Positions 28,979 through 48,743 of a stretch of 64,000 nt of DNA are shown here, in pieces. Position 1 is the stretch's first letter. Every line of letters begins with the position of its first letter. A program made the position numbers and the translations under genes. This stretch comes from Halolamina rubra (GTDB taxonomy: Archaea; Halobacteriota; Halobacteria; Halobacteriales; Haloferacaceae), in the NCBI RefSeq assembly GCF_000739555.1, contig NZ_BBJN01000025.1, positions 1-64,000 of the forward strand, read 5' to 3'. The notes under the pieces are model-generated. The model saw only the letters and a program-made list of their open reading frames with translations, searched no databases and was not told the DNA's origin.

Positions 28979-31900
28979 CAGTTCGTCGCTCGGGCCGTCG
29001 GGGCGAACGCGTCAGTCAGCGCGCCAGTGTCGTCGACGCTCCCGGCGTCCGTGGAGTCACCGTCGGTCGTCGAGTCGAGCGTGACCGAGTCCGGGGCCGT
29101 GACGCTGCTGGTGTTGCTGTCGTTCTGTGCGCCCTCGGGCGCCTGCGAGCGCTCCTCGAGGGTGATCTGCTTGGGCTCCTCGTCGACGCCCAGCACCTTC
29201 CCCTCGGAGACGTCGAACTCCTGGCCGTACTGGATCGTGTAGCCGGACTCGTTCGTCGTCGACGGCGTCGTCACGGTGTAGCTGGAGTTCGCGCGGACGC
29301 TGACGTTCGTGTAGCCGTTCTCCGGGCCGAACTCGTCGTAGCCCGTCGTCGAGTACGGCAGCGTCATCGTGAACTCGCCGTCCTCGTTCGTCTGGGCCTG
29401 CTGCGTGTAGACGAACGTGGAGTTCGAGTTCGGCATCCGCATCTCCACGGAGGCGGTCACCTCGGTGTTCGCGGGCGCCCCGGAGCCCTGCACGGTCGCA
29501 CCGGGCACCTTCTCGAACGTCTTCACCCAGTTGGGCGACGTGGCCGAGGTCTGGTAGATCAGCCCGTAGAGCTGGTCGCCGGCCATCTGGGCCTGTCGCC
29601 GGTCGTTCAGCTGGAAGTTGGGGTTCTGTGCCTCGCTGGCGTGGGCCAGCCGGTAGTGCTCCAGCGCGGGCACGTCCTCGCTCGGGAACGGCCCGACGCC
29701 GCCGATCTGGGCGCTGCCGTCCTCCTCGACGTACTCCTCGGCGGCGGTCATGTTGGGGAAGCGCTTGACCATCGACTCGTTGTCGCCGACCGTTCGGACC
29801 TCGACGGTGCTACCGTCGGCGGCGGTCAGTTCGCGGGTCTCCCAGTCGACGACGATCGGCTGGGCCTCCTGTGCGGAGCCGTGGTAGCGGTACAGCCGCA
29901 CCATCAGGCTGTCGTAGTAGCGCTGCTCGTACAGCTGCGAGCGCATGTCGACGAACGTGCCGCGCTCGGTCTCCCGCAGGCTGTACACCGTCTCCGCGAA
30001 GTCGCCGTAGGAGACGTTCTCGTCGTCGTAGAACGTCACCGGCGCGCTGAACTTCGAGGTGACCGAGGCCATCTGGTAGTCGACCATCACGTAGCGGGTC
30101 TCCTCACCCGGCTGGGCGCGACGGTCGAGCACCTCCTGGGCCTGGCTCTCGTTCGGTGCGAGCAGGTAGTTCGCGGCGTTGGTCGCGCCCTGCTGGAACG
30201 GGTTGGCGTTCGGGATCCGCTCGCTCTGCGTGGTGATCCAGTGGCCGTAGTCCCACCAGGACATCACGCCGTATGCGCCCTCGGGGTACTCGAAGTCGTC
30301 AGTCCGCTCGTAGGCGCCGTAGTACTCCATCTGATCGGCGTTGCCGGCGCCGCCGAGGTTCCCCTCTTCGGGGGTGTTGTTCTGCATCCAGTCGAACGTC
30401 CCCTGCCAGGCGAGCACCGAGCCAGGCCCGGTGTTGTTGCCAGTCTGGACGGAAGTCGCCGTCTGCGTCCCCTGGCTCCCCGCACCGCCGCCGAGCGTCA
30501 CCGGGACCGCGAGCACGGGTGCGGCGACGAGCAGGAGGACGGCCGCGATGGTGAGCACCTGGTGGCCCTCCAGCTCCTCGACGAACATGATCGCCGAGAC
30601 CAGCACGGCCGCGGCGACGACGATCGCCGCGAGCGTCTGGTCGAGCAGCAGCAGGGCGAACACGACCGGGACCGTCGCGAACCCGATCGTGCGGACCTCG
30701 AGGTCGGCCGCCGCGAGCGCGGCGTCGACGTCGATGTACTCGAGCACGCGCGCGAACAGGTACGCGTTGGCGACGACGACGACGATGGCGAGGTAGTAGT
30801 TGAACCGCACCTGGGTGAACGCCATCGAAGTGATGAACGCCGCCCAGACCACGAACAGCAGGTCGGTCGACTCGTACTCCGCGACCAGCGGCGCGCCGGC
30901 GAGGAGTGCAGCGACGACGAGCAGGCCGAGCACCTGCTGGTCGACGCCGACGGCGCCGCCGACGACGCTCGGCAGCGGCGTCAGGAAGATCAGTGCGGTG
31001 ATGACGAGGCTCCCGCCGAGGTAGCTGTACGCTCGCTGGGTCCCCTTCCGAATCAGGGGCCGGGCGTGCATGAACACGACACCCAGGACCGCCGTGAAGA
31101 ACGTGATCCCATACTCCAGCACGACGCGCTCGGACGCGGAGTTGAGCCCGTACTGCTGGATGGAGGTCTGGCTGATGAACGGCTGGGCCTCCGAGATGGT
31201 GCGGGTTGCGGCGCCCGCGCTGAAGCCGACGATGCGGAGGAGGTTCGCAGCGACCCTGTCGAACAGCCCCGACGCGACGACGGAAATGATCAGGGTTCCG
31301 ACGATCCCCAACCCGAGAACCGCGACCGGGTAGTACGTCGTGTCGAGGTCCTCGCGCTCCCAGTAGCGTGCGAGCCAACAGAGGAACACGCCCGCGGCAG
31401 CCACCGAGAGGGCGGCCAACGGCTGGAGCAGCGAGAGCGTCGTCGTCGAGGTGTCGAACGTGTCGATCGCGAGCAGGCTCATCAGCGCGGTGACCAGCAT
31501 CGCCACCGTCACCGCGAACGCGACCGGTTCGGGCGTGTCGCCGTGAACGACGTCGGTGACGACGTTCAGGACGAGGAACAGGCCGACGATGCCGACCAGG
31601 AACACGGCTGGCGGCCAGGCCCAAAGGAACAGGCCGACGAGGACCCCGGCTGCGAGTGACCACGCGAGGGGCTCCTTCAGCGTGTCGAGTTCGCGGGACT
31701 CGATCAGCTCCTCGCGGATCACCTCCCAGACGGGCATCGTCCGGTCGGCGACGGCGACGGCGCCGAACAAGCCGACCATCGCGAGCCCCATGAAGAACGG
31801 CTCCGCGGCGTTGTGGTCAGCGGCGCCGACGAGGGTTCGCTGGAGGAACAGCCCCGGGAGGAGGGCGAGGAGGAGGACACCGAACAGGCCGCCGATGCGG

Positions 31901-32337
31901 CTACTGAACCGATTTCCGATGAAGTAGACGGGGACGACCGCGAGCGCGCCGAACACCGCTGGTGCGACGAGCAGCGTCTTGGCGATGAGGGTGTCGGTCG
32001 GGGACCCGAGGCCGATAATCAGGGCGACGAGGGCGATCAACTGGTCGTAGAGGGTACCGAACTGGCCGACGAAGTTCCCGATCGGAAAACCAGTCCAGAT
32101 GTCGTACGGGATCGCGGAGGGGAAGTTACGGACGATGTAGTTCGTTTCGCGGAGGTGGTACCAGGCGTCGTTGCCCGAGAAGTACACTTCGCCGTTCTGG
32201 ATGAAGCGGGAGTAGCTCTGCATCCGGACCCAGAACATCCACGCCATCGCGAGGAGGAGTGCGGGGACGTGGTACCAGTCGACCGCAGTGTCGCGGAACG
32301 ACTGGAGGAAGTCGTCGCTTTCGCTGCGCGAACTCAT
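28978..32337 (-). CDS. aglB: Oligosaccharyltransferase AglB (STT3 family)
   Basis: 1119 residues. Transfers the lipid-linked glycan to Asn of N-X-S/T sequons on exported proteins. About 13 N-terminal membrane segments carry the first external-loop motif SGNDAWYHLRE (catalytic metal Asp) and AADHNAAEPFF (DxD-like/Glu region). The periplasm-facing C-terminal domain has the sequon-binding WWDYG motif (MSWWDYGHWITT). A long C-terminal extension (about residues 900-1119) has beta-rich repeats and a Thr/Asp-rich tail. Start ATG 32337 (MSSRSESDDFL); an AT-rich box AAACCTTATCC about 30 nt upstream is a probable TATA. Confidence 0.95.
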   Translation of the reverse strand: MSSRSESDDFLQSFRDTAVDWYHVPALLLAMAWMFWVRMQSYSRFIQNGEVYFSGNDAWYHLRETNYIVRNFPSAIPYDIWTGFPIGNFVGQFGTLYDQLIALVALIIGLGSPTDTLIAKTLLVAPAVFGALAVVPVYFIGNRFSSRIGGLFGVLLLALLPGLFLQRTLVGAADHNAAEPFFMGLAMVGLFGAVAVADRTMPVWEVIREELIESRELDTLKEPLAWSLAAGVLVGLFLWAWPPAVFLVGIVGLFLVLNVVTDVVHGDTPEPVAFAVTVAMLVTALMSLLAIDTFDTSTTTLSLLQPLAALSVAAAGVFLCWLARYWEREDLDTTYYPVAVLGLGIVGTLIISVVASGLFDRVAANLLRIVGFSAGAATRTISEAQPFISQTSIQQYGLNSASERVVLEYGITFFTAVLGVVFMHARPLIRKGTQRAYSYLGGSLVITALIFLTPLPSVVGGAVGVDQQVLGLLVVAALLAGAPLVAEYESTDLLFVVWAAFITSMAFTQVRFNYYLAIVVVVANAYLFARVLEYIDVDAALAAADLEVRTIGFATVPVVFALLLLDQTLAAIVVAAAVLVSAIMFVEELEGHQVLTIAAVLLLVAAPVLAVPVTLGGGAGSQGTQTATSVQTGNNTGPGSVLAWQGTFDWMQNNTPEEGNLGGAGNADQMEYYGAYERTDDFEYPEGAYGVMSWWDYGHWITTQSERIPNANPFQQGATNAANYLLAPNESQAQEVLDRRAQPGEETRYVMVDYQMASVTSKFSAPVTFYDDENVSYGDFAETVYSLRETERGTFVDMRSQLYEQRYYDSLMVRLYRYHGSAQEAQPIVVDWETRELTAADGSTVEVRTVGDNESMVKRFPNMTAAEEYVEEDGSAQIGGVGPFPSEDVPALEHYRLAHASEAQNPNFQLNDRRQAQMAGDQLYGLIYQTSATSPNWVKTFEKVPGATVQGSGAPANTEVTASVEMRMPNSNSTFVYTQQAQTNEDGEFTMTLPYSTTGYDEFGPENGYTNVSVRANSSYTVTTPSTTNESGYTIQYGQEFDVSEGKVLGVDEEPKQITLEERSQAPEGAQNDSNTSSVTAPDSVTLDSTTDGDSTDAGSVDDTGALTDAFAPTARATN

Positions 32338-32459
32338 TGGCGTGAATCGTAGCAAAAGGGGGATAAGGTTTGTGAAAGAGCGGGCGTTTAGCTAAGAAGC
32401 CACACGTCAAAGGAAGGGAAATTATCGAATTGACCATCACGCGACCATTCGTCTTGGAA

Positions 32460-33991
32460 CTACGATGTGGGGGTGATGTCGGAGAACACACTCCATGCCG
32501 TTGTTCGGAAGTGCTTACTGATAACAAAGAGAACGCCGAAGTACGTACCACCACCAAGGGAGAGTAGCGCGATCAGTTCGATCCATCCCCCGATCGGGGC
32601 GATGCGATCGCCCGCGACGGAGACGATCGCGAACATTACACTAGCACTGATCCACTGCTCAGCCATGGGACGGGTCAGTACAAAACGATCAAATACGGAG
32701 CGTGCGACAGCCTGATAGGCAACGAAACGAATTGCCTCGGCGACGATCGTTGCCGCAACACACCCAGCAGCCCATAGGTGACGCCAAGAGCATACACCAG
32801 AGGGAGGTGGATGAGAACAGTGAGAAGACTCACCCGGAATCGAAGGTCAGGGCGATTCATTCCGTCCAATACGGCCTCGAACGGCATCTTGTACACGTTG
32901 AACACTTGGAACAGGGCTAATCCGACAAGCGCGGGCCATGCCGGAGCGAAGTCCTCACGGAGCAGGTAGACGAGCAACGTTTCCGGCGGGAGCGCAAGCG
33001 CCCCCAAAAATAATGGTGCAGCGATGAGCCCGACATACGACATCGCATTGCGGAGGTCGTGCTGGACATCTTCGCCGAGCGAAGACAGTCCGCTCGCCTT
33101 CACTACCAGTGAATCGCCGATACTGATAGCAACGAGTGTGGCTGGCATCGTCACACGGATAGCTGCCTCGTAGTATCCAACGACGGTACTTCCCGCTAGG
33201 AACCCCAGGATCATAGGGTCCATGCGAGTGTAGAGATTATCGACCAGTGCGTTCGGAACGCTCCAGCGCGCAAATGAGAGTGTCGATCGCACGGTTTCAC
33301 GAGTCGGTATACGCGGTCGAACACCGATCAGCAGGAATCCGAGTAATCCGGTGATGATTGTCGCCCCGACTAGTCCACCCATAAGGCCGACCGCGCCGTA
33401 GCCCATCATTATTAGCGCCACCTGTCCACCGAGCGTGAGAACGCTCCGGAGTGTATCCACCCAGAAGGACGCCCCGGGCTTGCCGATGCCAGCGTAGATA
33501 CGGTTCGTCAGGGTAAACAGGCCAAGTGAGCCGACGATCGCGACACCGCCATACGCGTATCTGACTGGGCCGAGTTCGGCACGAATGATCCCTTCGAGTA
33601 GGTAGACACCCACGAGGAGAGCGCCTGTAAAGGATATCAGTACGAGAAGTCCCAAACCAAGGTATCGCTCTACTTCGGCCTCGACTTCTGCGACACGCTT
33701 CTTGATGGCGTTCGAGACACCGCCCATCCCTTGCACAAGGAACTTGGCGACAGCTAATACGAAGTAGTAGAGCCCGATCCCAGCCGGGCCGAGAGTCTGT
33801 CCGAAATAAACGAACCCTAAGAACCCAGTCGCCGTCAGGAACACCTTAGCGAGTAGGGCTACGGCAGCCTCTCGCCCCATACTCAATCCCGCAGTATCGG
33901 ACTCAAGAGCCTCGGAGGACGGAGTATCCGTTGATGAATCAGTTCCATCGGGCGATTCTTCACCCCGTTTGGACGGCCCCTCGTCCGGCAT
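32460..33991 (-). pseudogene. Polysaccharide/oligosaccharide-lipid flippase (Wzx/MATE-like), 1-base frameshift
   Basis: Membrane protein of the polysaccharide-transport family that would flip lipid-linked glycans. The first 415 residues have an acidic N-terminal tail and about 11 membrane segments (MGREAAVALLAKVFLTATGFLGFVYFG; MDPMILGFLAGSTVVGYYEAA). After YALGVTYGLLG the frame fails. The expected VVAATIVAEAIRFVAYQA ... FVLTRPMAEQWISASVMF ... SDITPTS continues in another frame to 32460. One added base near 32762 gives about 510 residues, normal for Wzx. Base composition is visibly more AT-rich than the neighbours, suggesting transfer. ATG 33991 overlaps the AlkP-1 stop (TAATG). AglR of Haloferax belongs to the same broad class. 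Confidence 0.8.
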
Positions 33992-35526
33992 TACTCGAGA
34001 TAACCCAGATCGGCGAGTCGGTCCTCTACAGCTTGATCCCGCTCCGAGTCGTCCAGCATCTCGCGCGTCCGTGGCGTCGGAAGCTCTTCCGAAGCCAGAT
34101 AGCTCGGTTGTCGATCTTCGACAATGATGTCGGTACGTGCTTTCCCGTCGAACTCGGGGGAGAGAGGCTGGCCGACTGCATGCATGACCGTCGGAAGCAC
34201 GTCCACGACCGACATCCCTTCCACCTCTCCAGAGCCAAACAGGGGCCCACGGGCGGCGAACAGCCCACGGTACCGATGGTTGAAGTTGTTCGTGTCGCTC
34301 GCGTACCCGCCAGTAGGTGACTCAAGTGTCGTTGGGTAGTGTCCGGGTGCTGGTCGAGCAATGAGGTCTGGAGTCCACTCGCCCGGATCGTTATAGGCCT
34401 CGTCAGCCGTTAGAACAGCCCGGAAAAGGTCGTTGCCGTCCTCGTCGGTCAGAGCAGAGATACGTTCCTGTAACTCGGCGATGAGTTCGGTTGGATCGTC
34501 CACAGTCGGGTGATCGAAGCGGTCGTCGTTGACGAAGACACAGCCGTATCGGAGCTGCCACGCTCGTGAATTCGGGTAGTCGATCGTGGGCGTCGCAGCC
34601 TCCTGAAGGCTCTGTCCCGCATCGGTCGCAATGATGTAGTTGTAGGCCTGCCTCATGCGCTCGAAGAGCCAGTCCGAGCGTTTCGCCAGTCGTTTCGCGG
34701 TGCCAACTGCCAACTTGGCCGTTCGTGAGGCGTCGTCGTTTTGTTTCGTGGCGAGGTATCCTTCCTCCTGCAGCCAGTCCGATAGGTGAATGTTCGTGTG
34801 CTTGTACTCAAAGCCGTGGTCACTCATCAGTACGACGTTGTCAGCCATCTCCGCGAGGTCCGCCGCACAGGAGTCGACCGTCTCCAGCAGTCGCCGGTAG
34901 TACGGGCCACGAGTGGCGTCGTCCGAGAAGTTCGATAGAAGATGTCCTGCCCAGTCGGGTGTCGAAAAGAGGCAGAACCCCACCTCCGGATCGTACTTCT
35001 GGAAGGCTTCCTTCGCGAAGTCTCGACGCCGCCGAGTGATCTCACAGACGTGGTCGAAGTAATCGTCCGGACGTGCTTTCTTGGCCTTGTCGTGGTCGAG
35101 AACGTAGTCGTCGAAGGTGTCCAACTCCTGCAGGTGATTGGGGACCGCGTCTTCCTTGTCCTTCGCCATCATGGCCGCGACGAGGTGGCTGTTCTCGCCC
35201 GTCGGGACTCGTCCGATCGATCCGGGGAGGTTGATGAATATTGAGTCGTCAAGCAGGTCGTACGCAGCGGCGTCCTTCGTATTCGTTTCCAATGTGTCCC
35301 GTTCGTAGTTCGGGAGACGGCGAATCATGTTCGGCCGACCGTGACTTCCCGGATCCTTTCCAGTCGCGAACGACGTCCACGCCGGGAGCGTCGTCGGGGT
35401 ATCGACACTCATCAAGTCACCAGAAATACCGGATTCGAAAACCGTGGACAGATACTCAGGTTCGATATCGAACCGGTCGAGCATATTGAAGGAGAGACCG
35501 TCCAATCCGAGGACGAGCAGCTTCAT
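33991..35526 (-). CDS. AlkP-superfamily phosphodiesterase/phosphomutase-like enzyme (AlkP-1)
   Basis: 511 residues. The N-terminal metal Asp is in LLVLGLDGLSF; the nucleophile region is TPTTLPAWTSFATGKDPG, with Thr at the catalytic position; the metal site is LMSDHGFEYKHTNIHLSDWL. The pattern matches the cytosolic AlkP phosphohydrolase/phosphomutase group (COG3379-type). There is no signal peptide, so it should act inside the cell. It ends RLADLGYLE, a tail shared with the other AlkP proteins here. Start ATG 35526 (MKLLVLGLDG); an upstream in-frame start at 35541 would add five residues. Translationally coupled to the flippase gene (TAATG). Confidence 0.8.
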   Translation of the reverse strand: MKLLVLGLDGLSFNMLDRFDIEPEYLSTVFESGISGDLMSVDTPTTLPAWTSFATGKDPGSHGRPNMIRRLPNYERDTLETNTKDAAAYDLLDDSIFINLPGSIGRVPTGENSHLVAAMMAKDKEDAVPNHLQELDTFDDYVLDHDKAKKARPDDYFDHVCEITRRRRDFAKEAFQKYDPEVGFCLFSTPDWAGHLLSNFSDDATRGPYYRRLLETVDSCAADLAEMADNVVLMSDHGFEYKHTNIHLSDWLQEEGYLATKQNDDASRTAKLAVGTAKRLAKRSDWLFERMRQAYNYIIATDAGQSLQEAATPTIDYPNSRAWQLRYGCVFVNDDRFDHPTVDDPTELIAELQERISALTDEDGNDLFRAVLTADEAYNDPGEWTPDLIARPAPGHYPTTLESPTGGYASDTNNFNHRYRGLFAARGPLFGSGEVEGMSVVDVLPTVMHAVGQPLSPEFDGKARTDIIVEDRQPSYLASEELPTPRTREMLDDSERDQAVEDRLADLGYLE

Positions 35527-35582
35527 GTCTACCTCACTCACCGGGACTGAAGTCAGTCTGTCGATCCGGTAACGAGGGGCCC

Positions 35583-36506
35583 CTACTCCATATAGCCGAG
35601 GTCTCGCAGGCGTTCGCTGACTGTCTCGTCCGACGCTGAGTCGTCTATCGCCTCGCCATCCTCGATCTCGATCTCGGGGCGATCGTCACTCTCCCGTACG
35701 TGCCACGGGACCTTCGTGAGCTCGTCGACGTGGACCCCGATTCGGTGGCTGTAGTAACGGACGGGAAGTGGTGCCGCCCGCTCACCGAGCATTTCGCCGT
35801 GATCAGCGGTGACGACGAACCGCCCCTGGATGTCGTCAAGCAACTCCGCCGCGGCATCCAGCGCGAGGTCGGCGTTCTCTTCGTACGCCTTTCGGAACTC
35901 CTCGCGCGACGTGAACTCATGGAAAACATCGTTGACCAGCTCCGAGAAGAACCCACGTCGCTCGTCCGGTCCGGTCCCCATATCCAGTTCGCGTCCGGTC
36001 GGGCCAATGAACGGTGGGTGGGGTTGGTTGTAGTGGAAGAGTAATCGCTTGTTGGGGTACTCTGCCGCTGCTTCGAGACACGCGTCAGTCATGTCCTCCG
36101 GATGGACGGTGTGGAGATCGTCGTCCCATCGATCCTGCCAGACGTTCCACACGGCGTGGAACTCCGTGTTCAGTTCGTCGTGGTAGCGGTAGAACTGGGG
36201 GTTCGCAGTGATGTAGACAGTGTCGTGCAGTTCGCGGTTCTGGAAGTTGCCGAAGAGGAATTCGACAGTCCCTCCACCCCGGGAGGTGCGAGTCTCCAAT
36301 CGACCGGGCAACTCCGATCTGTCGGCGAAAGTGTCGTACCGGAACGAGTCCAGAATTGCCAGGGCATCCCAGTCCTCCTCGAAGATGTCCACGCCATCGG
36401 GGTTGTAGTACGCTCCGTGTTTCCGGCGGTTGTAGACAGCGTTGACTTCCATCAACGCTTCGCGCGGACGGCGTATTCCTCGTCGAATCTCTTCGAGGCC
36501 ATACAT
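35583..36506 (-). CDS. Short AlkP-superfamily (sulfatase-like) protein (AlkP-2)
   Basis: 307 residues, much shorter than its neighbours. DWDALAILDSFRYDTF provides the first metal Asp and VTADHGEMLGERAAPL the Asp-His metal pair; LLFHYNQPHPPFIG is the His region of sulfatase-like folds. The usual Cys/Ser-x-Pro-x-Arg formylglycine site is absent; TSRGGGTVEFLFGNF occupies that place. Without a signal peptide it is probably cytosolic, although the first 30 residues are basic and might lie on the membrane. C-terminus RLRDLGYME. Downstream of AlkP-3 by 39 nt and upstream of AlkP-1 by 56 nt, so probably one operon. Substrate unknown. Confidence 0.75.
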   Translation of the reverse strand: MYGLEEIRRGIRRPREALMEVNAVYNRRKHGAYYNPDGVDIFEEDWDALAILDSFRYDTFADRSELPGRLETRTSRGGGTVEFLFGNFQNRELHDTVYITANPQFYRYHDELNTEFHAVWNVWQDRWDDDLHTVHPEDMTDACLEAAAEYPNKRLLFHYNQPHPPFIGPTGRELDMGTGPDERRGFFSELVNDVFHEFTSREEFRKAYEENADLALDAAAELLDDIQGRFVVTADHGEMLGERAAPLPVRYYSHRIGVHVDELTKVPWHVRESDDRPEIEIEDGEAIDDSASDETVSERLRDLGYME

Positions 36507-36545
36507 GCGTGGGACGATTCGGGACGTGGGCTTGCCTCTTGTGGT

Positions 36546-38135
36546 CTACTCCAAGTACCCTAAATCCGCGAGACGCTCCTCGACAGCTGTATCGTCCGTC
36601 GTTGCTCTATCCCCCGGGTCGAACTCAGGATACGCCTCCTGATCGGGTCCCGGGACGAACGACTGACCGTCCATCGTCTCGTCGGGAGCGACACCCATCG
36701 ATGCTAGGACTGTCGGTGCAACGTCGAATATCGTCGCATCCCGTAGCTCAGCTACGTCTGCTCCCTCGCCACTCACGGCGGCAATACCGTCGCGCTTGTG
36801 ATTATACGGCTCGGGCTCTTCCCACGTATCTCCGATCAACGAGGACAGGGAGTGTTCGAACTCCCGTGGAACGCAGAGGATGTCGACCGCTTCGTCGGCG
36901 TAGGGGCCGTAGATGTACTCCTCCCGTGGAGTGACCGATTCGAACAGGGGCTCGCCCTCGGGAGTCTCAATCTCACGGAGCCGCGTCATCAGCTCCTCGC
37001 GGGCCCTGTCGTATTCGGCGGACGGAATCTCGCCCTTCGGGTCTCGACCGGCGACGTTCATCCGGATGCCTAGTTCGGATGGTGAACGGAGGTAAGCCCG
37101 AGAGTTCGCGCGGTCGACACGCTCGCTCGCCGCGAAGACGGCTGAGACGGGGACGTGCCGTCCGACGAAGTCAGCGAGCCCAAACGCTTCGAGGATCGAT
37201 TTGCCTCGTTGGTAGGTCAGTCCGAACTTTGCGGCGAAGGCGGCTGCCCGAGCGATAGCTGGGTGCGTTGTCTCCTCGTCACCGACGAGCTTCTGGTCTT
37301 TCAACTGGAACCACGAAGGAACTGAGTCTCCATCCCGTGTCGTCACCACGTCACCTGATCCTTTCAGATACTCGTTGATCCGGAATTCGTGTCCGCTGTA
37401 CGGTCCCATCCCGTGGTCGCTCGCGACGATCACGGTGTCAGGTTCGCACTCGTCGAGAATCGCCCTAAGTTGGTCGTCGACGACTTCATAGATCGCGCGA
37501 ACCTTCTCGTCGTCGCCAGGGAAATCGTGGAAGACGGCGTCGGTCTTCTGGAACTGGACGAACCCGAAGTCCGGGTCGAACCGCTCGTCAAGGTAGCGAA
37601 GTGCTTGACCTCGTGATTGAGTGAGATCGAGGTAGGACTCGAACTTTGCGGCGTCGGATTGACTCTCGTCGGTCTCTCGAGGGGCGTAGACTCGGTAGTC
37701 ACCAAGTTCCTCACGTACGTCGTCCAAGAGTCCTTTAGGGTGGCATTCAGGGTGTTCCGGGGCGAGATAGCCCGGGATGAGCGCGCCGTCGAACGGCCGA
37801 GGTGGTGCGGTTACAGGTACGTTGACGACTGCACTCGTGTAGCCCGCTTCATCGAGATACTCCCAGATGGTGCGACGACGGACGTGGCTCGCGTTGACGA
37901 GGTCCCACTCGTATCCGTCGAACGAGAGAAAGTCGAAGACACCGTGTTTGCCGGGGTTGGTACCAGTATACATCGACGGCCAGGCGCTGGCAGTCCACGG
38001 CGGGATCTGCGACTCGAGCGGCCCGTGCTTCCCGTCCTCGAAGATTTGCCGGAGGTTCGGGAGTGCTCCCTCCTCGAACAACGGATCGAGAACGTTTGCA
38101 CAGGCCGCGTCGAGACCGACGAGGAGGGTTTTCAT
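36546..38135 (-). CDS. AlkP-superfamily phosphodiesterase/phosphomutase-like enzyme (AlkP-3)
   Basis: 529 residues. Opens MKTLLVGLDAACANVL (metal Asp). The nucleophile motif is PPWTASAWPSMYTGTNPGKHG, with the Thr of PPWT aligned to that of AlkP-1 and AlkP-4. QKTDAVFHDF and VIVASDHGMGPYSGHEFRIN complete the two-metal site. A mid-protein insertion of about 150 residues separates the last metal-binding segment (VAPTVLASMGV near the end). No export signal. Ends EERLADLGYLE. First gene of the minus-strand set AlkP-3, AlkP-2, AlkP-1, flippase, and divergent (101 nt) from the GT4 gene. Confidence 0.8.
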   Translation of the reverse strand: MKTLLVGLDAACANVLDPLFEEGALPNLRQIFEDGKHGPLESQIPPWTASAWPSMYTGTNPGKHGVFDFLSFDGYEWDLVNASHVRRRTIWEYLDEAGYTSAVVNVPVTAPPRPFDGALIPGYLAPEHPECHPKGLLDDVREELGDYRVYAPRETDESQSDAAKFESYLDLTQSRGQALRYLDERFDPDFGFVQFQKTDAVFHDFPGDDEKVRAIYEVVDDQLRAILDECEPDTVIVASDHGMGPYSGHEFRINEYLKGSGDVVTTRDGDSVPSWFQLKDQKLVGDEETTHPAIARAAAFAAKFGLTYQRGKSILEAFGLADFVGRHVPVSAVFAASERVDRANSRAYLRSPSELGIRMNVAGRDPKGEIPSAEYDRAREELMTRLREIETPEGEPLFESVTPREEYIYGPYADEAVDILCVPREFEHSLSSLIGDTWEEPEPYNHKRDGIAAVSGEGADVAELRDATIFDVAPTVLASMGVAPDETMDGQSFVPGPDQEAYPEFDPGDRATTDDTAVEERLADLGYLE

Positions 38136-38236
38136 AGTTCACCGAACCGGAGGACCGGGCAAAACGGTGACGGTCCACTATCCCACAACCGGACCAAGAC
38201 GGTGCGTTGAAGCCATAAGCCCTCGATTGTCCACAT

Positions 38237-39271
38237 ATGGACCCCGACACGGCCGACGTGGCGATGCTGTATCAGGATCCACACCCTGCTCACGAAGGGT
38301 TCGCCGACGCAGTCGGGGCAGACCTCGTGAACTATCGCGGTCGGGAGCCGAGTGTTTTCGGTGACTCGTTGGCGTCGGATGCGTACAACGGGCTCTCTCT
38401 CCCGGAGTACGACGTGTTCATCGTGGAGGGGTCGCGTCCACTTTACACTGCGGTCGCAAAGGCGTTCACGAGCGACGCAAAGTTTGTCTACCTCTGTGCC
38501 GACCACGGTCTCCACGCCCTCGGGAACGGGGAGTTCGAGGGCGACTCCGCGCTCAAATCCCTCATTGGGCGCTTTGGGACGCCGATGGTCCGCGCGGTCG
38601 GGAGCCGCACTATCGACGGCGTGATCGCCGTCTCGGAGTTCGCCGCCGAGTTCACCCGGCCGATCGTCGGCCCAAACACCCCGATAGAGGTCGCCCATCC
38701 GTTCATTCAACCAGCGGTGTACGACGCGCTCGGAACCGTATCGCCCGCCCTGGAGAGTAAGACTGCCGTCACTGTCGGCCGTGCAGCGCGCTACAAAGGC
38801 GTCGATCTCCTCGTCGACGCTTGGGAAGAAGTCCGACGGACCCATCCCGAGGCCGAACTCCACGTCGTCGGCGGAGGCCATCCTGAGGACTACGACCGAG
38901 TCGAAGGCGTCGAACGCCGGGGCTACGTCGAGTCGCTCGTCGATGCTTTCGGGCCGGCGTCGCTGTTCGTTCAACCTTCCCGGATGGACACGTTCCCCGT
39001 GAGCACGTTGGAGGCGATGCGGGCGGGCCTCCCCCCGCTCGTCACGGAAGGTGCTGGAACCCGATCTGTCGTCCGCGAGGTGGACGAAGAGTTGGTCGTC
39101 GAGGCCGACTCCGCCTCGATTGCACGCGGCGTGTCGCGGCAGTTCGGCAACTCCCACACCACGAACCGCCTTCTCGCCGCTCGCGCGCGGCGGATCGGAA
39201 GCCAGTTCGACGCCGACAGCCGGAAGGCAGCGTTTCGAAGCGCCTTCAGACGTGTTCTCGAAGGGTTTTAG
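38237..39271 (+). CDS. Family 4 glycosyltransferase
   Basis: 344 residues, GT-B fold. The C-terminal donor domain is clear: TAVTVGRAARYKGVDLLVDAW, AELHVVGGG, FVQPSRMDTFPVSTLEAMRAGLPPLVTEGAG (the E-x7-E type motif of GT4). The N-terminal acceptor domain is short and begins DVAMLYQDPHPAHEGFADA. Presumably adds a sugar to the dolichol-linked glycan in the cytosol; donor and linkage cannot be predicted. First gene of the plus-strand run GT4, AlkP-4, AlkP-5 (gaps 24 nt and overlap). Confidence 0.85.
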   Translation: MDPDTADVAMLYQDPHPAHEGFADAVGADLVNYRGREPSVFGDSLASDAYNGLSLPEYDVFIVEGSRPLYTAVAKAFTSDAKFVYLCADHGLHALGNGEFEGDSALKSLIGRFGTPMVRAVGSRTIDGVIAVSEFAAEFTRPIVGPNTPIEVAHPFIQPAVYDALGTVSPALESKTAVTVGRAARYKGVDLLVDAWEEVRRTHPEAELHVVGGGHPEDYDRVEGVERRGYVESLVDAFGPASLFVQPSRMDTFPVSTLEAMRAGLPPLVTEGAGTRSVVREVDEELVVEADSASIARGVSRQFGNSHTTNRLLAARARRIGSQFDADSRKAAFRSAFRRVLEGF

Positions 39272-39295
39272 CCACGCCCCGCGCACTTCAAAACC

Positions 39296-40837
39296 ATGAC
39301 TCTCTACGTCGTCGGGCTCGACGGAGCGGAGCCGTCCCTCCTCCGACGATGGGCCGACGAGGGCCACCTCCCTGCGTTCTCCCGACTGTTCGAGAATGGG
39401 GCGAGCGGTGGGCTGGAAACGACGCTCCCCCCGATCACGTTCCCCGCGTGGAAGTGCTACTCGACCGGAAAGACGCCCGGAAAACTCGGCGTGTACGAAT
39501 GGTTCGCCTTCGACGCTACCGGCCCGTCGATCGAGACGAACGACTCTGCGGACTTCCGCTCGCGGGAGTACTGGGACGTACTCGCCGACGGTGAGTACGA
39601 GCCAGCGACGGTGAACATGCCGACTACACACCCACCGAACACCGACGAGGGTGTGCTCTGTATCGCTGGCAGTCCCGCTTCCGAACGCGAGACGTTCACG
39701 AAACCCGAATCACTGAAAGACGAACTCCTTGATGTCGTCCCCGACTACCGAGTGAAACCCGAACTCGTCATCGGCGAAGCGAGCGCGGACGAACTTGTTG
39801 CCGAGGCGGAAGAGCTGATCGACCAGCGGTTCGACACGGCGGAGTGGCTGGCCGAGGAGAAAGGTGCGAACCCGATTCACTTCACGGTGTTCGTCACTGA
39901 TACTGTCCAACACCGTCTCTGGGACCGTCCCGAGCGACTGCGGGAGATGTACGAGCGCGTTGACGAACGTCTCGGCACGCTCCTGGACGATCCCGACGCC
40001 ACCGTCGTCTGCATGTCAGATCACGGTTTTACCGAGATTGAGACGGGGTTCTACCCAAACCAGTGGCTCGTCGAACGGGGTGATCTCGTCGGCGGAAGCG
40101 ACACGACACAAGGTGCGCTCGCACGACTCGGCCTGACCCGCGAGCGCCTGAAGCGCGTAGTGGACAGACTCGGGCTCGTGAACGTTGCCCAAGCGGTGGT
40201 TCCGGAGTCGGCACAGCGATTCTTCCCGTCCGAAGATGGTCGAACCGCGGTACAGGACGCGCCGATCGACTGGTCAACGACCAAAGCCATCTCGCTCGGC
40301 CGGGGTCCGATTTACCTGAACGACCGGGCATTCGCGGACGACGACGAACGGGAATCGTATCGCTCGGCGCTCCGATCGGCGCTCGAATCGCTCGAGACAC
40401 CGGACGGAACACCCGTCGCCGAAGCCGTCCACGACCCCGAGACGTTCTACTCGGGGACGTGCCCCCGGGGGCCGGACCTCCTCGTAGAGTACACCGAAGG
40501 TATCGACGCTCCGGAAAGCGTCGGTGGCGACGTGTTCGGGAACAATTCTGACTGGCTGGCAACCCACCGCCGAACCGGGCTGTTCGCCGCGGCGGGAGAG
40601 GAAATCGCGACAGGCGAAACGGACCTCTCAATCTACGACGTGGCACCGACGCTCCTGCACTTGCTCGGCGAAGCGGTCCCGGAGGACGTCGACGGCGACG
40701 TGCGTTTCGACGTTCTCAACGGGGAAGCGGAGGAGCGTGAGGTGGAGACTGGTCCACCGTCTGCAACAGACGCAAGTGGGGAGCGAGCGGGGGAAGAAGT
40801 GGAAGAGACGCTACGGGATCTGGGATACGTAGAATGA
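39296..40837 (+). CDS. AlkP-superfamily phosphodiesterase/phosphomutase-like enzyme (AlkP-4)
   Basis: 513 residues. MTLYVVGLDGAEPSLL carries the metal Asp; PPITFPAWKCYSTGKTPGKLG carries the Thr nucleophile; FVTDTVQHRLWDRPE and CMSDHGFTEIETGFYPNQWL complete the metal site. Closest in layout to AlkP-1 and AlkP-3. No signal peptide or membrane helix. The tail is EEVEETLRDLGYVE. 24 nt downstream of the GT4 gene; its last codon overlaps the start of AlkP-5 (ATGA), so the two AlkP products are made together. May process nucleotide-sugar, sugar phosphate or phosphodiester groups of the glycan precursor; not provable from sequence. Confidence 0.8.
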   Translation: MTLYVVGLDGAEPSLLRRWADEGHLPAFSRLFENGASGGLETTLPPITFPAWKCYSTGKTPGKLGVYEWFAFDATGPSIETNDSADFRSREYWDVLADGEYEPATVNMPTTHPPNTDEGVLCIAGSPASERETFTKPESLKDELLDVVPDYRVKPELVIGEASADELVAEAEELIDQRFDTAEWLAEEKGANPIHFTVFVTDTVQHRLWDRPERLREMYERVDERLGTLLDDPDATVVCMSDHGFTEIETGFYPNQWLVERGDLVGGSDTTQGALARLGLTRERLKRVVDRLGLVNVAQAVVPESAQRFFPSEDGRTAVQDAPIDWSTTKAISLGRGPIYLNDRAFADDDERESYRSALRSALESLETPDGTPVAEAVHDPETFYSGTCPRGPDLLVEYTEGIDAPESVGGDVFGNNSDWLATHRRTGLFAAAGEEIATGETDLSIYDVAPTLLHLLGEAVPEDVDGDVRFDVLNGEAEEREVETGPPSATDASGERAGEEVEETLRDLGYVE

Positions 40838-42183
40838 GCGTCCTCCAACGCTTCCCACGACTGAACAACCTCTGGATGGACGCAAAACACCGGATCTCGC
40901 ACCGATTGGCACGGCGGGAGCAGTCCTTCTCGCGGGAGTTCTCGATCGATGATCCGCGCCCCGTCGTCGTCGTCGTGATCGACAGCCTCCGCGTGGATCA
41001 CGTGAGTGAGTTTGGCTACGAACGGCCAACGACGCCGACGCTGGACGGCGTCGATGCCGCGGCCTTCCCGAACGCCAAAGCGCCCGCACCGTGGACTTTT
41101 CCGTCCGTTCCCTCGATCCTCTCCGGGCGCTATCCACACAACCACGGGGGCTGCTTCGACACCGATCCCCGCGACCTGTCCTCGGAGCAGTTCCCGAACA
41201 AACCCGCCCCAGAGGTACCGATGCTTCCCGACCTCCTCTCCGCGGCGGGCTACGAGACGGCGATGGTGACCGCAATCCCGATGGCCGAACGGGCGGTCGG
41301 TGATCGGTTTGACACCGTGAGCGTGAAGTATACTGATGCGGAGGAGCGCGTCGAGACGGCGATCGACTGGTTGCGCGGCCGCGATCAACCCTTCCTCCAC
41401 TTACAGCTGGGAGATCCACATGCGCCACTCGACATACCCGATCGGCACCGCGAAACCTTCGACGTTCCCGATATCGAAGGGGTTGAGGACTGGCGCTTCC
41501 GAGAGACGACCGACGGAGAGGGGTTCGAGGCCTACCGCGACGCACGAACCCGTGCCTACGACGCCTCGATAAGAGGATCAGACGATGCGCTAGGGGGCCT
41601 ATTTGGGGTCCTACCTGACGACGCCGTCGTAGTGGTCTGCAGTGACCACGGCGAGGCACTCTGGGACCATCCTGAACTCGAACGGGAACTGAACGAAGAC
41701 CCTCGAGGCTACTATGCGACGGACCACGGGCACAGCGTACTCGGAGAACTGACCGACGTTCCGCTCTGGATACGTGCACCGGGCGTGTGTGGGGATACCG
41801 AGAAAGTCTCGCTTATAGATATCGCGCCGACGGTTCTGACGGCTATCGGCGCGAAAGGGACATTGGAGGTCGACGGGACTCCCCTTCAGGGCGACACGAG
41901 GCAGCGGCCGCTGCCGGTTCTCAGCGAAGAGACCGGCTACGGCTACAACCAACGAGCGGTGTGGGTTGGGGACGAGAAGGGTGTCTCGATTCCAGAGACG
42001 GGGCAAGAACGGCGTTTCGACCTAAACGAAGATCCGTGTGAACTCGATCCCCGCAAGGGCTTGAACAGTTCTCTCAAGTCGGCGTTCCTCAAGTTCGATT
42101 TTGGTGAGGAATCTGGCGGCAAGAAGATGGAGGTAGATGACGCGACCAAGGACCGTCTGGAGGAGCTGGGGTATCTGGAGTAA
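40834..42183 (+). CDS. Sulfatase-fold AlkP-superfamily protein with Thr at the nucleophile site (AlkP-5)
   Basis: 449 residues. VVVVVIDSLRVDHVSEFGYERPTTP is the classical sulfatase-fold opening; the active-site segment is APWTFPSVPSILSGRYP, where true sulfatases have Cys/Ser-x-Pro-x-Arg. Thr and Val replace the Cys and Arg, so formylglycine cannot form and a phospho-hydrolase or phosphotransferase is more likely. CSDHGEALWDHPE and DHGHSVLGELTDVPLWI give the metal and His residues. A basic N-terminus of 35 residues precedes the fold. The C-terminus ends RLEELGYLE. ATG 40834 overlaps the AlkP-4 stop. Confidence 0.78.
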   Translation: MSVLQRFPRLNNLWMDAKHRISHRLARREQSFSREFSIDDPRPVVVVVIDSLRVDHVSEFGYERPTTPTLDGVDAAAFPNAKAPAPWTFPSVPSILSGRYPHNHGGCFDTDPRDLSSEQFPNKPAPEVPMLPDLLSAAGYETAMVTAIPMAERAVGDRFDTVSVKYTDAEERVETAIDWLRGRDQPFLHLQLGDPHAPLDIPDRHRETFDVPDIEGVEDWRFRETTDGEGFEAYRDARTRAYDASIRGSDDALGGLFGVLPDDAVVVVCSDHGEALWDHPELERELNEDPRGYYATDHGHSVLGELTDVPLWIRAPGVCGDTEKVSLIDIAPTVLTAIGAKGTLEVDGTPLQGDTRQRPLPVLSEETGYGYNQRAVWVGDEKGVSIPETGQERRFDLNEDPCELDPRKGLNSSLKSAFLKFDFGEESGGKKMEVDDATKDRLEELGYLE

Positions 42184-42271
42184 ATGCTGCCGCCATCCGA
42201 GGAAAGCGTTCAGCAGTATAATACACAGCCGTCTGGTCTACTGTCGGACCCCGTAACCGACGAAAATCAGT

Positions 42272-43177
42272 TCAGGACCAGAGGTTCGTTGCAGCACCGA
42301 GTCTCGCGGTCATGTCGGCGAGGAACTTGACGAACCCAACGGCGGAGTCGTTCGCAGCCCGCAGTTCGTTAAAGAGCAACAGCGGGAAGGCGAACAATCC
42401 GACAACTGATGGGAGGAGTGACCTACCCCCCCGTCCCCTAACCGACGCCTGCCCATTTCGATAGCGCTGTTGAAACAGCCCAACGAGTGTGTAATCCCGA
42501 AAGTGCCAGGCCGTGATGGGAATGTACGCGTTATCGCCGCTATCGAGTACGTTTTCTTGAAACGGTCGCTCGGATTCGAGATCACCCTTCGAGGTGTATC
42601 TGGTCGAGCCGATTGCATCGCGGCTGAATGCAACGTTCTGACAGCCAAACGTACGTAGCTCTACGCCCCCAATAGTCACACCGTCGTCCTGCTCCTTTGC
42701 CCACCCAAGTTGGTTCGTGCGTATCCGCTCCTCGTCAACTCGCGCAGCGAGGCGGTGTCGGACCGCCTCGTGCGGCCAGTTACTCCCCCCACACGTTACG
42801 ATGCCCTCGTTGCACTCGATAGTCCAGACGATGCCAGAGATCCAGTTCGGCGGGAGTATGCAGTCGTCGTCAGTAAACGCGACAATATCACCGGAGGCGT
42901 GATCTATCCCAAGATTCCGGGCGTGGGCACTCCCTCCTTCTGTCTGTTCGACACCCACGATATTGGGGAACCCATCGACTAGCCGCTTTACTTCGGGTGT
43001 CCCAGTGTGGACAACGATTATCTCGGCAGGCAGATACTCCTGTGTTTGGAGCGATGCGATAGTAGTCGGTATCTTGTGCTGACGGTCTTTCGTCGGGATC
43101 ACCACACTAACGTCCACATCAGCAGGTGGAGGATTTGGGGGGAAATCCGGGTTGTTAACGTAGTTCGGGATAGACAT
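42272..43177 (-). CDS. Family 2 glycosyltransferase
   Basis: 301 residues, GT-A fold. DVSVVIPTKDRQHKIPTTIASLQTQEYLP is the nucleotide-binding start; AFTDDDCILPPNWI holds the DxD metal motif; GCQNVAFSRDA and the ESERPFQENVLDSGDN segment are acceptor/catalytic base regions. A C-terminal hydrophobic patch (SLLPSVVGLFAFPLLLF) may associate with the membrane. Base composition is clearly less GC-rich than the core genes, as in the flippase, suggesting an acquired part of the glycan cluster. Probably last gene of a minus-strand operon beginning at 46848, 108 nt after the preceding gene. Confidence 0.85.
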   Translation of the reverse strand: MSIPNYVNNPDFPPNPPPADVDVSVVIPTKDRQHKIPTTIASLQTQEYLPAEIIVVHTGTPEVKRLVDGFPNIVGVEQTEGGSAHARNLGIDHASGDIVAFTDDDCILPPNWISGIVWTIECNEGIVTCGGSNWPHEAVRHRLAARVDEERIRTNQLGWAKEQDDGVTIGGVELRTFGCQNVAFSRDAIGSTRYTSKGDLESERPFQENVLDSGDNAYIPITAWHFRDYTLVGLFQQRYRNGQASVRGRGGRSLLPSVVGLFAFPLLLFNELRAANDSAVGFVKFLADMTARLGAATNLWS

Positions 43178-43285
43178 TTCTCATAAATAGCCAATTCGCG
43201 GCTCCGAATTAATTTTACCCTTGAAACGTACCACTCGTCGAAACGGAGAAGAAGAGGTTCGTAGGGGCGTTCCGCGTACAACGGC

Positions 43286-44638
43286 TTACTTGTAACCTAG
43301 TGCCTCCAGATGCTCATCGACCATCTCTTCTCCCTCCTCGATTGCCTGCGAACCCGAGCGCATACGCTCCATCTCCGCAGTATGCTGATCAAGTGCAGTC
43401 GCGAGTTCGGCTTCTGCAGCCACCTCGTCTCCAAGTCGATCATCGTCGGCCGTCTCTCTCGGGTTTTCTCGAACGTTAAACAGGTGTTCGCCGTCGTCAG
43501 CGTGTCTGAGCAGCTTCCAGCCGTCCGCTCGCCGGACGTAACACCGTCTGTAGTTTACGTCTCTCCCCACGTCACCGAACGCGAACTCTCGACCCTCCCC
43601 AGCCGCGAGTTCAAGCGCCGATTCACCCTGCCACTCGGCCGGTTGGTCGACCCCGACGCTATCGGCGAGGGTTGGGGCCGTGTCCAGTAGGCGAATCTGC
43701 CCGCCGTGTTCGCCATCCCGCTCGAGGCCGTCCAGCAGGAACGGCACCCTGATCGTCCCCTCCCAGAACTCGGGGGGATGGCCACCTTTCCGATGTTCAC
43801 CGAGGAGTTCGCCGTGGTCTGCGGTAAACAGCGTGACCGTCTCCTGGCGAACCCCTAGCTCCGCCAGCGAGTCAAGGAGCGTGTGGAACTGCGCGTCTGT
43901 GTAGGCACACTCCGCATCATATAGATCGGTCAGGACATCCCACTCCTCCCCACTCATCTTCTCAGGGTGGTGGGTGGCCTTCCGAGAGAGCGCACGACAC
44001 TGAGATACCGAGCGCGGCGAGTCGAGGAACTCCTCTTGGTACGTAACGGGCGCCTCGTACGGGTGGTGGACGTCCATGTAGTGCAGCCAAACGAACCATG
44101 GTTGCTCACGCCCCTCGATCCACTCGATCGCCCGCTCGTTCAACGACGCTGCACGTTCGTACTCGCTCTCCTTGCCAGTTGCTGCTGAAAGAGCGCCGTC
44201 GACCCGTGTGTAAACCGACTCGATCGCCCGGAACAGTGCCCCCTTCTTGTCCAGATTCGATTGCACGAACTGCTTCAGCCGCCCCGCTTCCGTCGATCCC
44301 GAGGCGTCGTGGAGCGTATCGAACCCGCGGTCGAAGTTGTAGTCACCAGACGCGAAGTGATTGTCAGTGAAGCCAGCAGTGTCGTAGCCCGCATCAGAGA
44401 GGTGCTCGGCGAGCGTTATGATCCCGTCCCCAGACTCAGGGATACCCAGTCCTTCGATACTGGCAAAGTGCCGTGAAGCATGGATCGCCGGGAATGACGC
44501 CGGCGTTGAAGGACCGTTCGCGACTGCATCGGTGAACGAGAGTGCTTCATCCTCGAACTCCGCGGTTTCGGGCATCACCCGCTCGTTCACCCGATCGGCG
44601 CGAAGGGAGTCCACCGTGACGAGGAGGACGTTCTGCAT
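43286..44638 (-). CDS. Sulfatase-fold AlkP-superfamily protein, non-canonical active site (AlkP-6)
   Basis: 450 residues. NVLLVTVDSLRADRVNERVMPETAEF is the sulfatase-fold start; the active-site segment is NGPSTPASFPAIHASRHF. Aligned to AlkP-5 the nucleophile is Thr (or the preceding Ser), and the conserved Arg is missing, so classical sulfatase activity is doubtful. FVWLHYMDVHHPYEAP and LFTADHGELLGEHRKGGHPPEFWEGTIRVPFLLDG give the other metal/His elements. C-terminus EHLEALGYK, a shorter form of the shared tail. No signal peptide. Between the GT2 (42272) and GT4 (44663) genes; 24 nt from the latter. Confidence 0.8.
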   Translation of the reverse strand: MQNVLLVTVDSLRADRVNERVMPETAEFEDEALSFTDAVANGPSTPASFPAIHASRHFASIEGLGIPESGDGIITLAEHLSDAGYDTAGFTDNHFASGDYNFDRGFDTLHDASGSTEAGRLKQFVQSNLDKKGALFRAIESVYTRVDGALSAATGKESEYERAASLNERAIEWIEGREQPWFVWLHYMDVHHPYEAPVTYQEEFLDSPRSVSQCRALSRKATHHPEKMSGEEWDVLTDLYDAECAYTDAQFHTLLDSLAELGVRQETVTLFTADHGELLGEHRKGGHPPEFWEGTIRVPFLLDGLERDGEHGGQIRLLDTAPTLADSVGVDQPAEWQGESALELAAGEGREFAFGDVGRDVNYRRCYVRRADGWKLLRHADDGEHLFNVRENPRETADDDRLGDEVAAEAELATALDQHTAEMERMRSGSQAIEEGEEMVDEHLEALGYK

Positions 44639-44662: not shown

Positions 44663-45706
44663 CTAAACGTTGTTGTACTTCGTTTCGACGCGATCAGTTA
44701 CGTCGCCCCACGTCACAAGCGCTGACCGGTCCGGGACGATATCTACGCCGGTTCGAACAGCGTCGGTAACGGTCTTCTGATCCTCGTTGGAGACGTCGAT
44801 ACAACTGTGGCGATCGATCCAATCGGTGAGTGCCCCCGAATCTCGAACCACACACGGCGTCCCCGCGGCCAACGCTTCCGCAACGGTCATCCCGTATGCC
44901 TCAAACTCCGACAACGTCACGTACACGTCCGCACCCGCGTATAGTCTCGGCAGCCGTTCGTCGTCGACGTAGCCGAGGAACTCCACTCGATCTTCGACGC
45001 CCTCCTCGATGGCCACCCGCTCCAGTTCCTCTCGATACGGCCCAGATCCAGCCACCAACAGGTCGTACGCCTCCAACTCCGGCATCGCTCTGATCACGTG
45101 CTGTACGCCTTTGTACTCCTCTAGGCGACCGACAGTCAGCAGGTACGGCCTGTCACGAACCTCCGGCTCCGCAGACGCGAACCGCTCAACATCGACGCCG
45201 TTCGGAATCACCGTCGCGTCGACGCCGAAGTCCTCCCGAAGCCGGTCACGCTCCCACTCACTCACCGCGATCACCTTGTCGGCCTGCTTGACCGCCCACT
45301 TCCCGAACGGGTGGTACAGCGACAGCAGTCGATCACGGAAGTCACTCGCACTCTCCCCGTGGTAGTGTGCCGTCACGACGAACCGCTGGTCGGTCACACC
45401 CAGCGCAGCGAAAAGCAGGGGAAACGAGTGGTAGTTGTGCGCGTGGACAACGTCCGCATCAGTTTTACGAATCGACGACGCGATACCCGGGGCGATGTGG
45501 AACGCCTCCCCTGGCGAAAACCCTCGATGTCGATGCACTTCGACGCCGTTTCGGAGCTCCCAGCCGTCGACATCCGGGCCGAGATCGGCGGTGTGGACAA
45601 CCACCTCGTGACCACGGTCGGCTAGTCGCTCGCTGATCTCCTTCACGTGCGTCTCGACGCCGCCAGTGTTTGGTGGGTACCGTGGAGTAACCTGCAGTAT
45701 CTTCAC
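44663..45706 (-). CDS. Family 4 glycosyltransferase
   Basis: 347 residues, GT-B fold. VTPRYPPNTGGVETHVKEISERLADRGHEV is the N-terminal nucleotide-sugar transferase signature; VVHAHNYHSFPLLF, TVIPNGVDVERF, LLTVGRLEEYKGVQHVIRAMP and VTLSEFEAYGMTVAEALAAGTPCVV are canonical GT4 elements (E-x7-E). The start is GTG 45706 (VKILQVTPRYPP), which overlaps the stop codon of the upstream GT2 gene (GTGA) and has GGAGGT about 8 nt upstream inside that gene. Cytosolic; donor sugar unknown. Confidence 0.88.
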   Translation of the reverse strand: MKILQVTPRYPPNTGGVETHVKEISERLADRGHEVVVHTADLGPDVDGWELRNGVEVHRHRGFSPGEAFHIAPGIASSIRKTDADVVHAHNYHSFPLLFAALGVTDQRFVVTAHYHGESASDFRDRLLSLYHPFGKWAVKQADKVIAVSEWERDRLREDFGVDATVIPNGVDVERFASAEPEVRDRPYLLTVGRLEEYKGVQHVIRAMPELEAYDLLVAGSGPYREELERVAIEEGVEDRVEFLGYVDDERLPRLYAGADVYVTLSEFEAYGMTVAEALAAGTPCVVRDSGALTDWIDRHSCIDVSNEDQKTVTDAVRTGVDIVPDRSALVTWGDVTDRVETKYNNV

Positions 45707-48533: not shown

Positions 48534-48743
48534 ATGACCGACTACACCACCGTCTCGATCCCCACCGAGCTCGCCGAGCGCGTCGACGAAACGATCGAGG
48601 GCACCAGCTTCTCGAGCACGAGCGACCTCGTCCGGTTCCTGCTCCGCAGCATCGTGATCAAACACCAGGAGCGCGGCGAGCTCACCGAAGCGGAGTTCGA
48701 GGAGATCGCGGAACAGCTCGAGAACCTGGGGTATCTCGACTGA
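48534..48743 (+). CDS. Ribbon-helix-helix (CopG-like) small regulator
   Basis: 69 residues. YTTVSIPTELAERVDETIEGT is the ribbon plus first helix, and SFSSTSDLVRFLLRSIVIKHQE the second helix with the SxSDLVR signature. A C-terminal tail, EFEEIAEQLENLGYLD, follows. The tail is strikingly like the C-termini of the AlkP enzymes in the same island. Start ATG 48534 is preferred over an in-frame start three codons upstream. It lies 81 nt after aglJ. It may bind DNA as a dimer and regulate the glycosylation genes, but no operator was identified. Confidence 0.8.
   Translation: MTDYTTVSIPTELAERVDETIEGTSFSSTSDLVRFLLRSIVIKHQERGELTEAEFEEIAEQLENLGYLD

Follow-up and report, generated by a model that had tools for sequence, protein, structure and literature searches.

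The window, meaning the whole 64,000-nucleotide stretch of Halolamina rubra DNA that was analysed, contains an N-glycosylation island with six genes of the alkaline phosphatase (AlkP) superfamily, here called A1 to A6, all less than 17 kb from aglB. The G+C content of the island is 57–64%, compared with about 70% outside. The genes follow in this order:

28978-32355, minus strand: AglB oligosaccharyltransferase (TIGR04154, 890 bits)
32675-33991, minus strand: MOP-family flippase (PF01943, E 1e-14)
33991-35541, minus strand: A1, PF01663-class AlkP protein, Thr51, C-terminus RLADLGYLE (Pfam and alignment)
35583-36506, minus strand: A2, short AlkP protein, homologue of Agl30/VNG1056C, Thr80, C-terminus RLRDLGYME (30% identity over 303 aa, E 9e-31)
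36546-38135, minus strand: A3, PF01663-class AlkP protein, D9/T48/D199/H203/D240/H241, C-terminus RLADLGYLE (Pfam, alignment, AF2 and Foldseek)
38237-39271, plus strand: GT4-family glycosyltransferase (PF13692, E 9e-23)
39296-40837, plus strand: A4, PF01663-class AlkP protein, T48, C-terminus TLRDLGYVE (Pfam and alignment)
40834-42183, plus strand: A5, PF00884-class AlkP protein, T88 for Cys and V92 for Arg, C-terminus RLEELGYLE (Pfam and motif scoring)
42272-43177, minus strand: GT2-family glycosyltransferase (PF00535, E 8e-20)
43286-44638, minus strand: A6, PF00884-class AlkP protein, T45 for Cys, Arg lost, C-terminus HLEALGYK (Pfam and motif scoring)
44663-45742, minus strand: GT4-family glycosyltransferase (PF13439, E 1e-34)
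45703-46848, minus strand: GT2-family glycosyltransferase (PF00535, E 3e-19)
47532-48452, plus strand: AglJ-like GT2 glycosyltransferase (PF00535, E 8e-16; the name AglJ is that of the preliminary description)
48534-48743, plus strand: 69-aa ribbon-helix-helix (RHH) protein, C-terminus LENLGYLD (PF01402, 20.5 bits, at the cut-off)

The preliminary description of this DNA had reported six AlkP reading frames at these positions and strands, without signal peptides and with some overlapping codons. ORF and Pfam reading bear this out, in the case of A2 by way of its structure model and its homology to Agl30. A hydrophobic N-terminus is absent, the 19-residue hydropathy peaks at 1.6 anywhere in A1–A6, and no strongly hydrophobic segment or membrane helix is found in them by hydropathy. 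A4 and A5 share the ATGA at 40834-40837, and the flippase and A1 genes share base 33991. The likely start of A1 is the ATG at 35526 rather than the GTG at 35541, because the sixth residue of the GTG frame is a Met that aligns with A3 and A4. Relatives of the AglJ-like GT2, scoring 428–592 bits, are present in 11 other aglB loci. At 28040-28978 (minus strand), a PF04018 gene (undecaprenyl-phosphate-translocase-like, DUF368) shares one base with the AglB gene; a role in recycling the lipid carrier is possible, because what is apparently the same gene, judged by eye, is found in the vicinity of AglB in Hbt. salinarum (L048, 18815-19780). A 697-aa protein encoded at 49010-51103 (minus strand) has no Pfam match, and by eye its His and Cys stretches look CHAT/caspase-like.

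The six proteins fall into three classes. A1, A3, and A4 belong to PF01663 (NPP/PhnA-like), with scores of 78–126 bits against a cut-off of 23, while A5 (109 bits) and A6 (105 bits) are PF00884-like. A2 belongs to no Pfam family, giving a sub-threshold C-terminal Sulfatase match only (E 0.11); its AlkP fold is established by its AF2 model, the PDB matches of this model to AlkP-family transferases, and its homology to Agl30. Among the six, structures were predicted for A2 and A3. The best Foldseek matches in the PDB for the A2 model (pLDDT 87.3, pTM 0.87) are MCR, ICR, and the Ept phosphoethanolamine transferases (EptA, EptC), followed by sulfatases; the match to phosphoethanolamine transferases has a probability of 1.00 but a TM-score of only about 0.45. 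For the A3 model (pLDDT 77.8), Foldseek returned phosphonoacetate hydrolase and NPPs as the best PDB matches. TM-scores for both proteins are modest, about 0.45–0.5 by query length.

Alignment confirmed the conservation of a Ser or Thr and of metal-ligand residues in the A2, PF00884-class, and PF01663-class groups. In the last of these, the residues corresponding to D9, T48, D199, H203, D240, and H241 of A3 are kept in 13–15 of 15 proteins, and A1, A3, and A4 all contain an N/T-H-R/K motif in their C-terminal part. The Thr nucleophile motif that had been assigned to this class proved right: T48 of A3 aligns with the Thr of phosphonoacetate hydrolase (3szy), a position occupied by Ala in the substrate-bound structure 3t02. 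Across 27 aligned A2/Agl30-type proteins, D53, R56, H158, D235, H236, and H254 (A2 numbering) are invariant, and position 80 is Ser in 24 and Thr in three, A2 being one of these. The nucleophile is Thr in 14 and Ser in the other 14 of 28 scorable PF00884-class proteins, with no Cys, and none of the scored proteins, Agl31 included, keeps the Arg of the sulfatase motif, its place being taken mainly by His or Phe. As also noted before, a Thr (T88, T45) replaces the sulfatase Cys in A5 and A6 and the Arg is gone: where sulfatases have Cys/Ser-x-Pro-x-Arg, A5 reads T-F-P-S-V and A6 T-P-A-S-F. Since this motif is absent and its Arg lost, formylglycine would not be expected in either protein. The Ser/Thr nucleophile, an Asp, and an Asp-His pair vary little or not at all across the A2 and PF00884-class groups.

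A feature common to all six AlkPs, and absent from the preliminary description, is found at the C-terminus. Each protein ends in a helix-like L-x-x-L-G-Y followed by one or two residues, with the group consensus V-x-x-R-L-x-x-L-G-Y. Agl30, Agl31, and nearly all AlkPs in aglB loci share this tail on bodies without close sequence similarity; it is present in 69 of 71 proteins of the three AlkP groups, counting close variants. In BLAST comparisons of A1, A3, and A4 with A2, the tail is the sole well-aligned region. With the tail included, the E-values lie between 1e-4 and 7e-3; without it, they exceed 1. In a set of about 11,200 ORFs from aglB neighbourhoods, the RHH protein is the one conserved carrier besides the AlkPs, and its gene lies near the AglJ-like gene in all 12 loci; a further match is a 67-aa chance ORF, and two more rows are AlkPs of the same Halolamina genome under second locus names.

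The tail is not a mark of aglB islands only, a possibility ruled out by unlinked AlkPs of the same genome that carry it (C36, C51, C42, C67, C64); it also occurs on AlkPs encoded in plasmid loci that show no aglB. Nor is it supported as a general property of AlkPs, since it is missing in seven bacterial relatives (mostly annotated sulfatases), in two haloarchaeal sulfatases, and in C58 and C11 of the same genome. Of five haloarchaeal plasmid sulfatases, three carry the tail, and it is missing from the other two. A sulfatase found in a haloarchaeal sugar-uptake context lacks the tail. A strict DNA pattern for the tail gave two matches in the genome, both in AlkP genes, and was too strict for the window's own copies. 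A literature search found no described LGY motif. At G000:C64 64376-66009 (L002), a PF01663-class AlkP gene is seemingly split by a frameshift (386 + 172 aa), its second frame ending in RLSDMGYL.

AlkP-fold N-glycan sulfotransferases were reported in 2025 from one species, Halobacterium salinarum, as the aglB-cluster proteins VNG1056C (Agl30) and VNG1057C (Agl31) (PMC11980604). Their deletion strongly reduced N-glycan sulfation, the expression of either in Hfx. volcanii led to sulfate on its glycan, and deletion of a third AlkP gene, VNG1063H, had no effect on sulfation; this evidence consists of deletion and expression in cells rather than in vitro activity (PMC11980604). We reached the genome of Hbt. 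salinarum DSM 3754 via bacteriorhodopsin and there located AglB and then the AlkP genes. By our own assignment from sequence, the short gene would be VNG1056C, because it has a predicted membrane segment at residues 21–39, as described for this protein (PMC11980604); the 459-aa neighbour would then be VNG1057C, and the 475-aa gene VNG1063H. All three carry the tail.

A2 is the only one of the six with clear homology to this pair, matching Agl30 with 30% identity over 303 aa (E 9e-31). The similarity of A6 to Agl31 is weak (24%, E 5e-10) and that of A5 weaker (E 3e-5), and A1, A3, and A4 give short local matches to Agl30 or Agl31 at best. The best Hbt. salinarum match of A6 is an AlkP on another contig (28%), and that of A5 is VNG1063H. 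A5 and A6 are thus only distantly related to Agl31 and not its orthologues.

Our survey of the 20 kb around AglB covered 29 genomes, representing 25 genera of the family, and found 59 AlkP ORFs in 20 of them, with zero to seven per genome. AlkP genes are common throughout these genomes; nevertheless, the Pfam-visible types number 35 near AglB against 4.9 expected from genome density, an approximately seven-fold enrichment (Poisson 9e-19, uncorrected for relatedness, the observed set coming from our own profiles and the expectation from genome-wide Pfam counts), so that the linkage to aglB goes beyond chance. Six copies had been considered unusual; in a range of 0–7 per island they lie at the high end and are not exceptional. 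They are not unique to this genome either, as there are seven in one other genome (G009) and five in each of four other genera. The G009 island contains strong relatives of A3, A4 (764 bits), and A6 (667 bits). Relatives of A1 scoring 583–707 bits in phmmer are found in three other genera (G015, G019, and G020), and in every case the island contains Agl31-type genes as well. A3-type proteins are present on 58 plasmid records, where all organisms listed are haloarchaea. Other genera have three or four Agl30-like genes together (L086 11952-15779, L068 10522-13450, and L058), arranged in tandem at the first two of these loci.

A search of 13 genomes, some of them draft assemblies and Hbt. salinarum among them, detected no ATP-sulfurylase (PF01747). 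APS kinase gave no convincing match in the genomes examined, again including Hbt. salinarum; most hits were P-loop stretches of 48–55 residues, and the few longer ones were weak. For the PAPS-reductase family, five of nine genomes gave a good match, Hbt. salinarum not being one of the five. The sulfate donor is unexplained by the canonical activating enzymes although the glycans of Hbt. salinarum are sulfated.

The cluster is real and non-random, and its AlkP genes are best read as encoding transferases that modify N-glycans, of the same kind as Agl30 and Agl31 but widened to take in an NPP-like class. Fold class, active-site residues, the homology between A2 and Agl30, linkage, and the tail are our computed basis for this reading, to which the literature adds the dependence of sulfation on Agl30 and Agl31. 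We assign a probability of roughly 0.6 to A1–A6 being cytosolic or peripheral-membrane AlkP-superfamily transferases that decorate the dolichol-phosphate-linked glycan, the added group most likely being sulfate, since Agl30 and Agl31 are reported sulfotransferases and A2 is homologous to Agl30. On the best reading of our analysis, A2 would sulfate the dolichol-linked glycan in the cytosol, and A5 and A6 likely do the same; we are most confident of the Agl30/Agl31-kind reading for A2 and least confident of it for A1, A3, and A4. The preliminary description favored the processing of phosphorylated intermediates or the attachment of phosphodiester groups. A transfer role on the N-glycan pathway stands; the emphasis on phosphate gives way, as Agl30 and Agl31, the sole AlkPs of such clusters with experimental data behind them, are sulfate-adding enzymes (PMC11980604) and A2 is homologous to Agl30. 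Phosphoryl chemistry may still apply to A1, A3, and A4, whose nearest folds, as modelled for A3, are phosphonoacetate hydrolase and NPP nucleotide pyrophosphatases.

The mechanism we infer, including the reaction of all six enzymes, the donor, the order of steps, and the role of the tail, would have the glycan decorated before flipping and transfer by AglB. The conserved Ser or Thr, positioned alongside a metal site (Asp and Asp-His in A2, A5, and A6; the PhnA/NPP-like D/T/D/H/D/H set in A1, A3, and A4), would attack an activated donor and pass the group to a sugar hydroxyl, much as EptA and MCR do with phosphoethanolamine, each enzyme possibly serving a different sugar position. The shared C-terminal helix (V-x-x-R-L-x-x-L-G-Y) may be a common docking or packing element. 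Docking is an idea and not a result, since helix-capping motifs such as this one can evolve convergently.

Several observations argue against sulfation by all six. A1, A3, and A4 lack a characterised glycosylation relative and resemble phosphonoacetate hydrolase and NPPs; the best Hbt. salinarum match of A5 is the protein whose deletion leaves sulfation unchanged, and that of A6 is not Agl31. It is therefore conceivable, as a minority possibility that we take seriously, that labour is divided: A2, and perhaps A5 and A6, would sulfate, whereas A1, A3, and A4 would carry out phosphorus chemistry, either phospho transfer to the glycan or cleavage of nucleotide by-products or nucleotide sugars. 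The nearest folds of A3, its Thr48 at the position that is Ala in 3t02, and the conserved D/T/D/H/D/H set agree with such a division; the co-occurrence of A1-type with Agl31-type genes and the same tail on all six speak against it, and phosphate and sulfate specificity cannot be read from the AlkP fold alone.

The failure to find canonical ATP-sulfurylase and APS kinase, Hbt. salinarum included, counts against sulfation in general and would suit enzymes that all attach phosphodiester or phosphoryl groups to the N-glycan, with no sulfotransferases among them. The structural matches of A2 to phosphoethanolamine transferases and the Ser/Thr nucleophile combined with the lost sulfatase Arg, which fit phosphotransferases, point the same way. 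Since active sites of this kind are also found in Agl30 and Agl31, which are reported to be sulfotransferases (PMC11980604), we consider this improbable. Ordinary catabolic sulfatases or phosphatases lying in the island by chance would explain the PF00884 and PF01663 annotation, and AlkP genes are indeed common in these genomes. With neither Cys nor Arg at the CxPxR position, no signal peptides, the seven-fold enrichment beside aglB, and the tail missing from the haloarchaeal sulfatase in a sugar-uptake context, this explanation is very hard to sustain, and catabolic sulfatases are rejected on motif, signal peptides, and gene context.

Extending the preferred reading of glycan-decorating transferases, the islands might, rather doubtfully, represent a modular haloarchaeal toolkit whose glycan sulfotransferases, all of the AlkP fold, come from three or more AlkP classes, the NPP-like one among them, and in which the LxxLGY tail, also borne by the RHH protein, recruits the enzymes to a common glycan-assembly partner and the sulfate donor is non-canonical. 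New here is the tail common to all six, Agl30, Agl31, and nearly all AlkPs of such loci; the PF01663/NPP-like class of A1, A3, and A4 has so far had no link to glycan sulfation. Provided that our reading of the islands is correct, a single fold is used in many haloarchaea to make surface glycans that differ in their sulfation. The genes would then indicate the species whose glycans are heavily modified, and the tail would offer a simple way to distinguish biosynthetic AlkPs from catabolic sulfatases, two groups that current annotation does not separate.

EptA, EptC, and MCR are AlkP-fold transferases with a Thr nucleophile. They provide the best PDB matches of the A2 model (TM-score by query length about 0.45) at 10–15% identity, but have membrane domains and act outside the cytosol; the fused membrane domain of EptA and MCR is absent from A1–A6 by hydropathy. 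Phosphonoacetate hydrolase (3szy) and NPP phosphodiesterases, the best matches of the A3 model, keep the catalytic Thr position at 11–17% identity, whereas A3 is longer, carries the tail, and lies in a glycosylation context. Within the PF01663 phosphodiesterase/NPP/PhnA family, A1, A3, and A4 score above the Pfam cut-off and have the catalytic Thr and metal ligands, phosphodiester or phosphonate hydrolysis being a prediction. A5 and A6 share the core fold and the Pfam match of formylglycine sulfatases (PF00884). In relation to Agl30 and Agl31, A2 has no N-terminal membrane helix and has Thr instead of the Ser of Agl30, A1, A3, and A4 belong to another AlkP class, and the island holds six AlkP genes, unlike the three of the Hbt. 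salinarum cluster. Like Agl30 and Agl31, all six are linked to aglB, have the AlkP fold and a Ser or Thr at the nucleophile position, and end in the LxxLGY tail.
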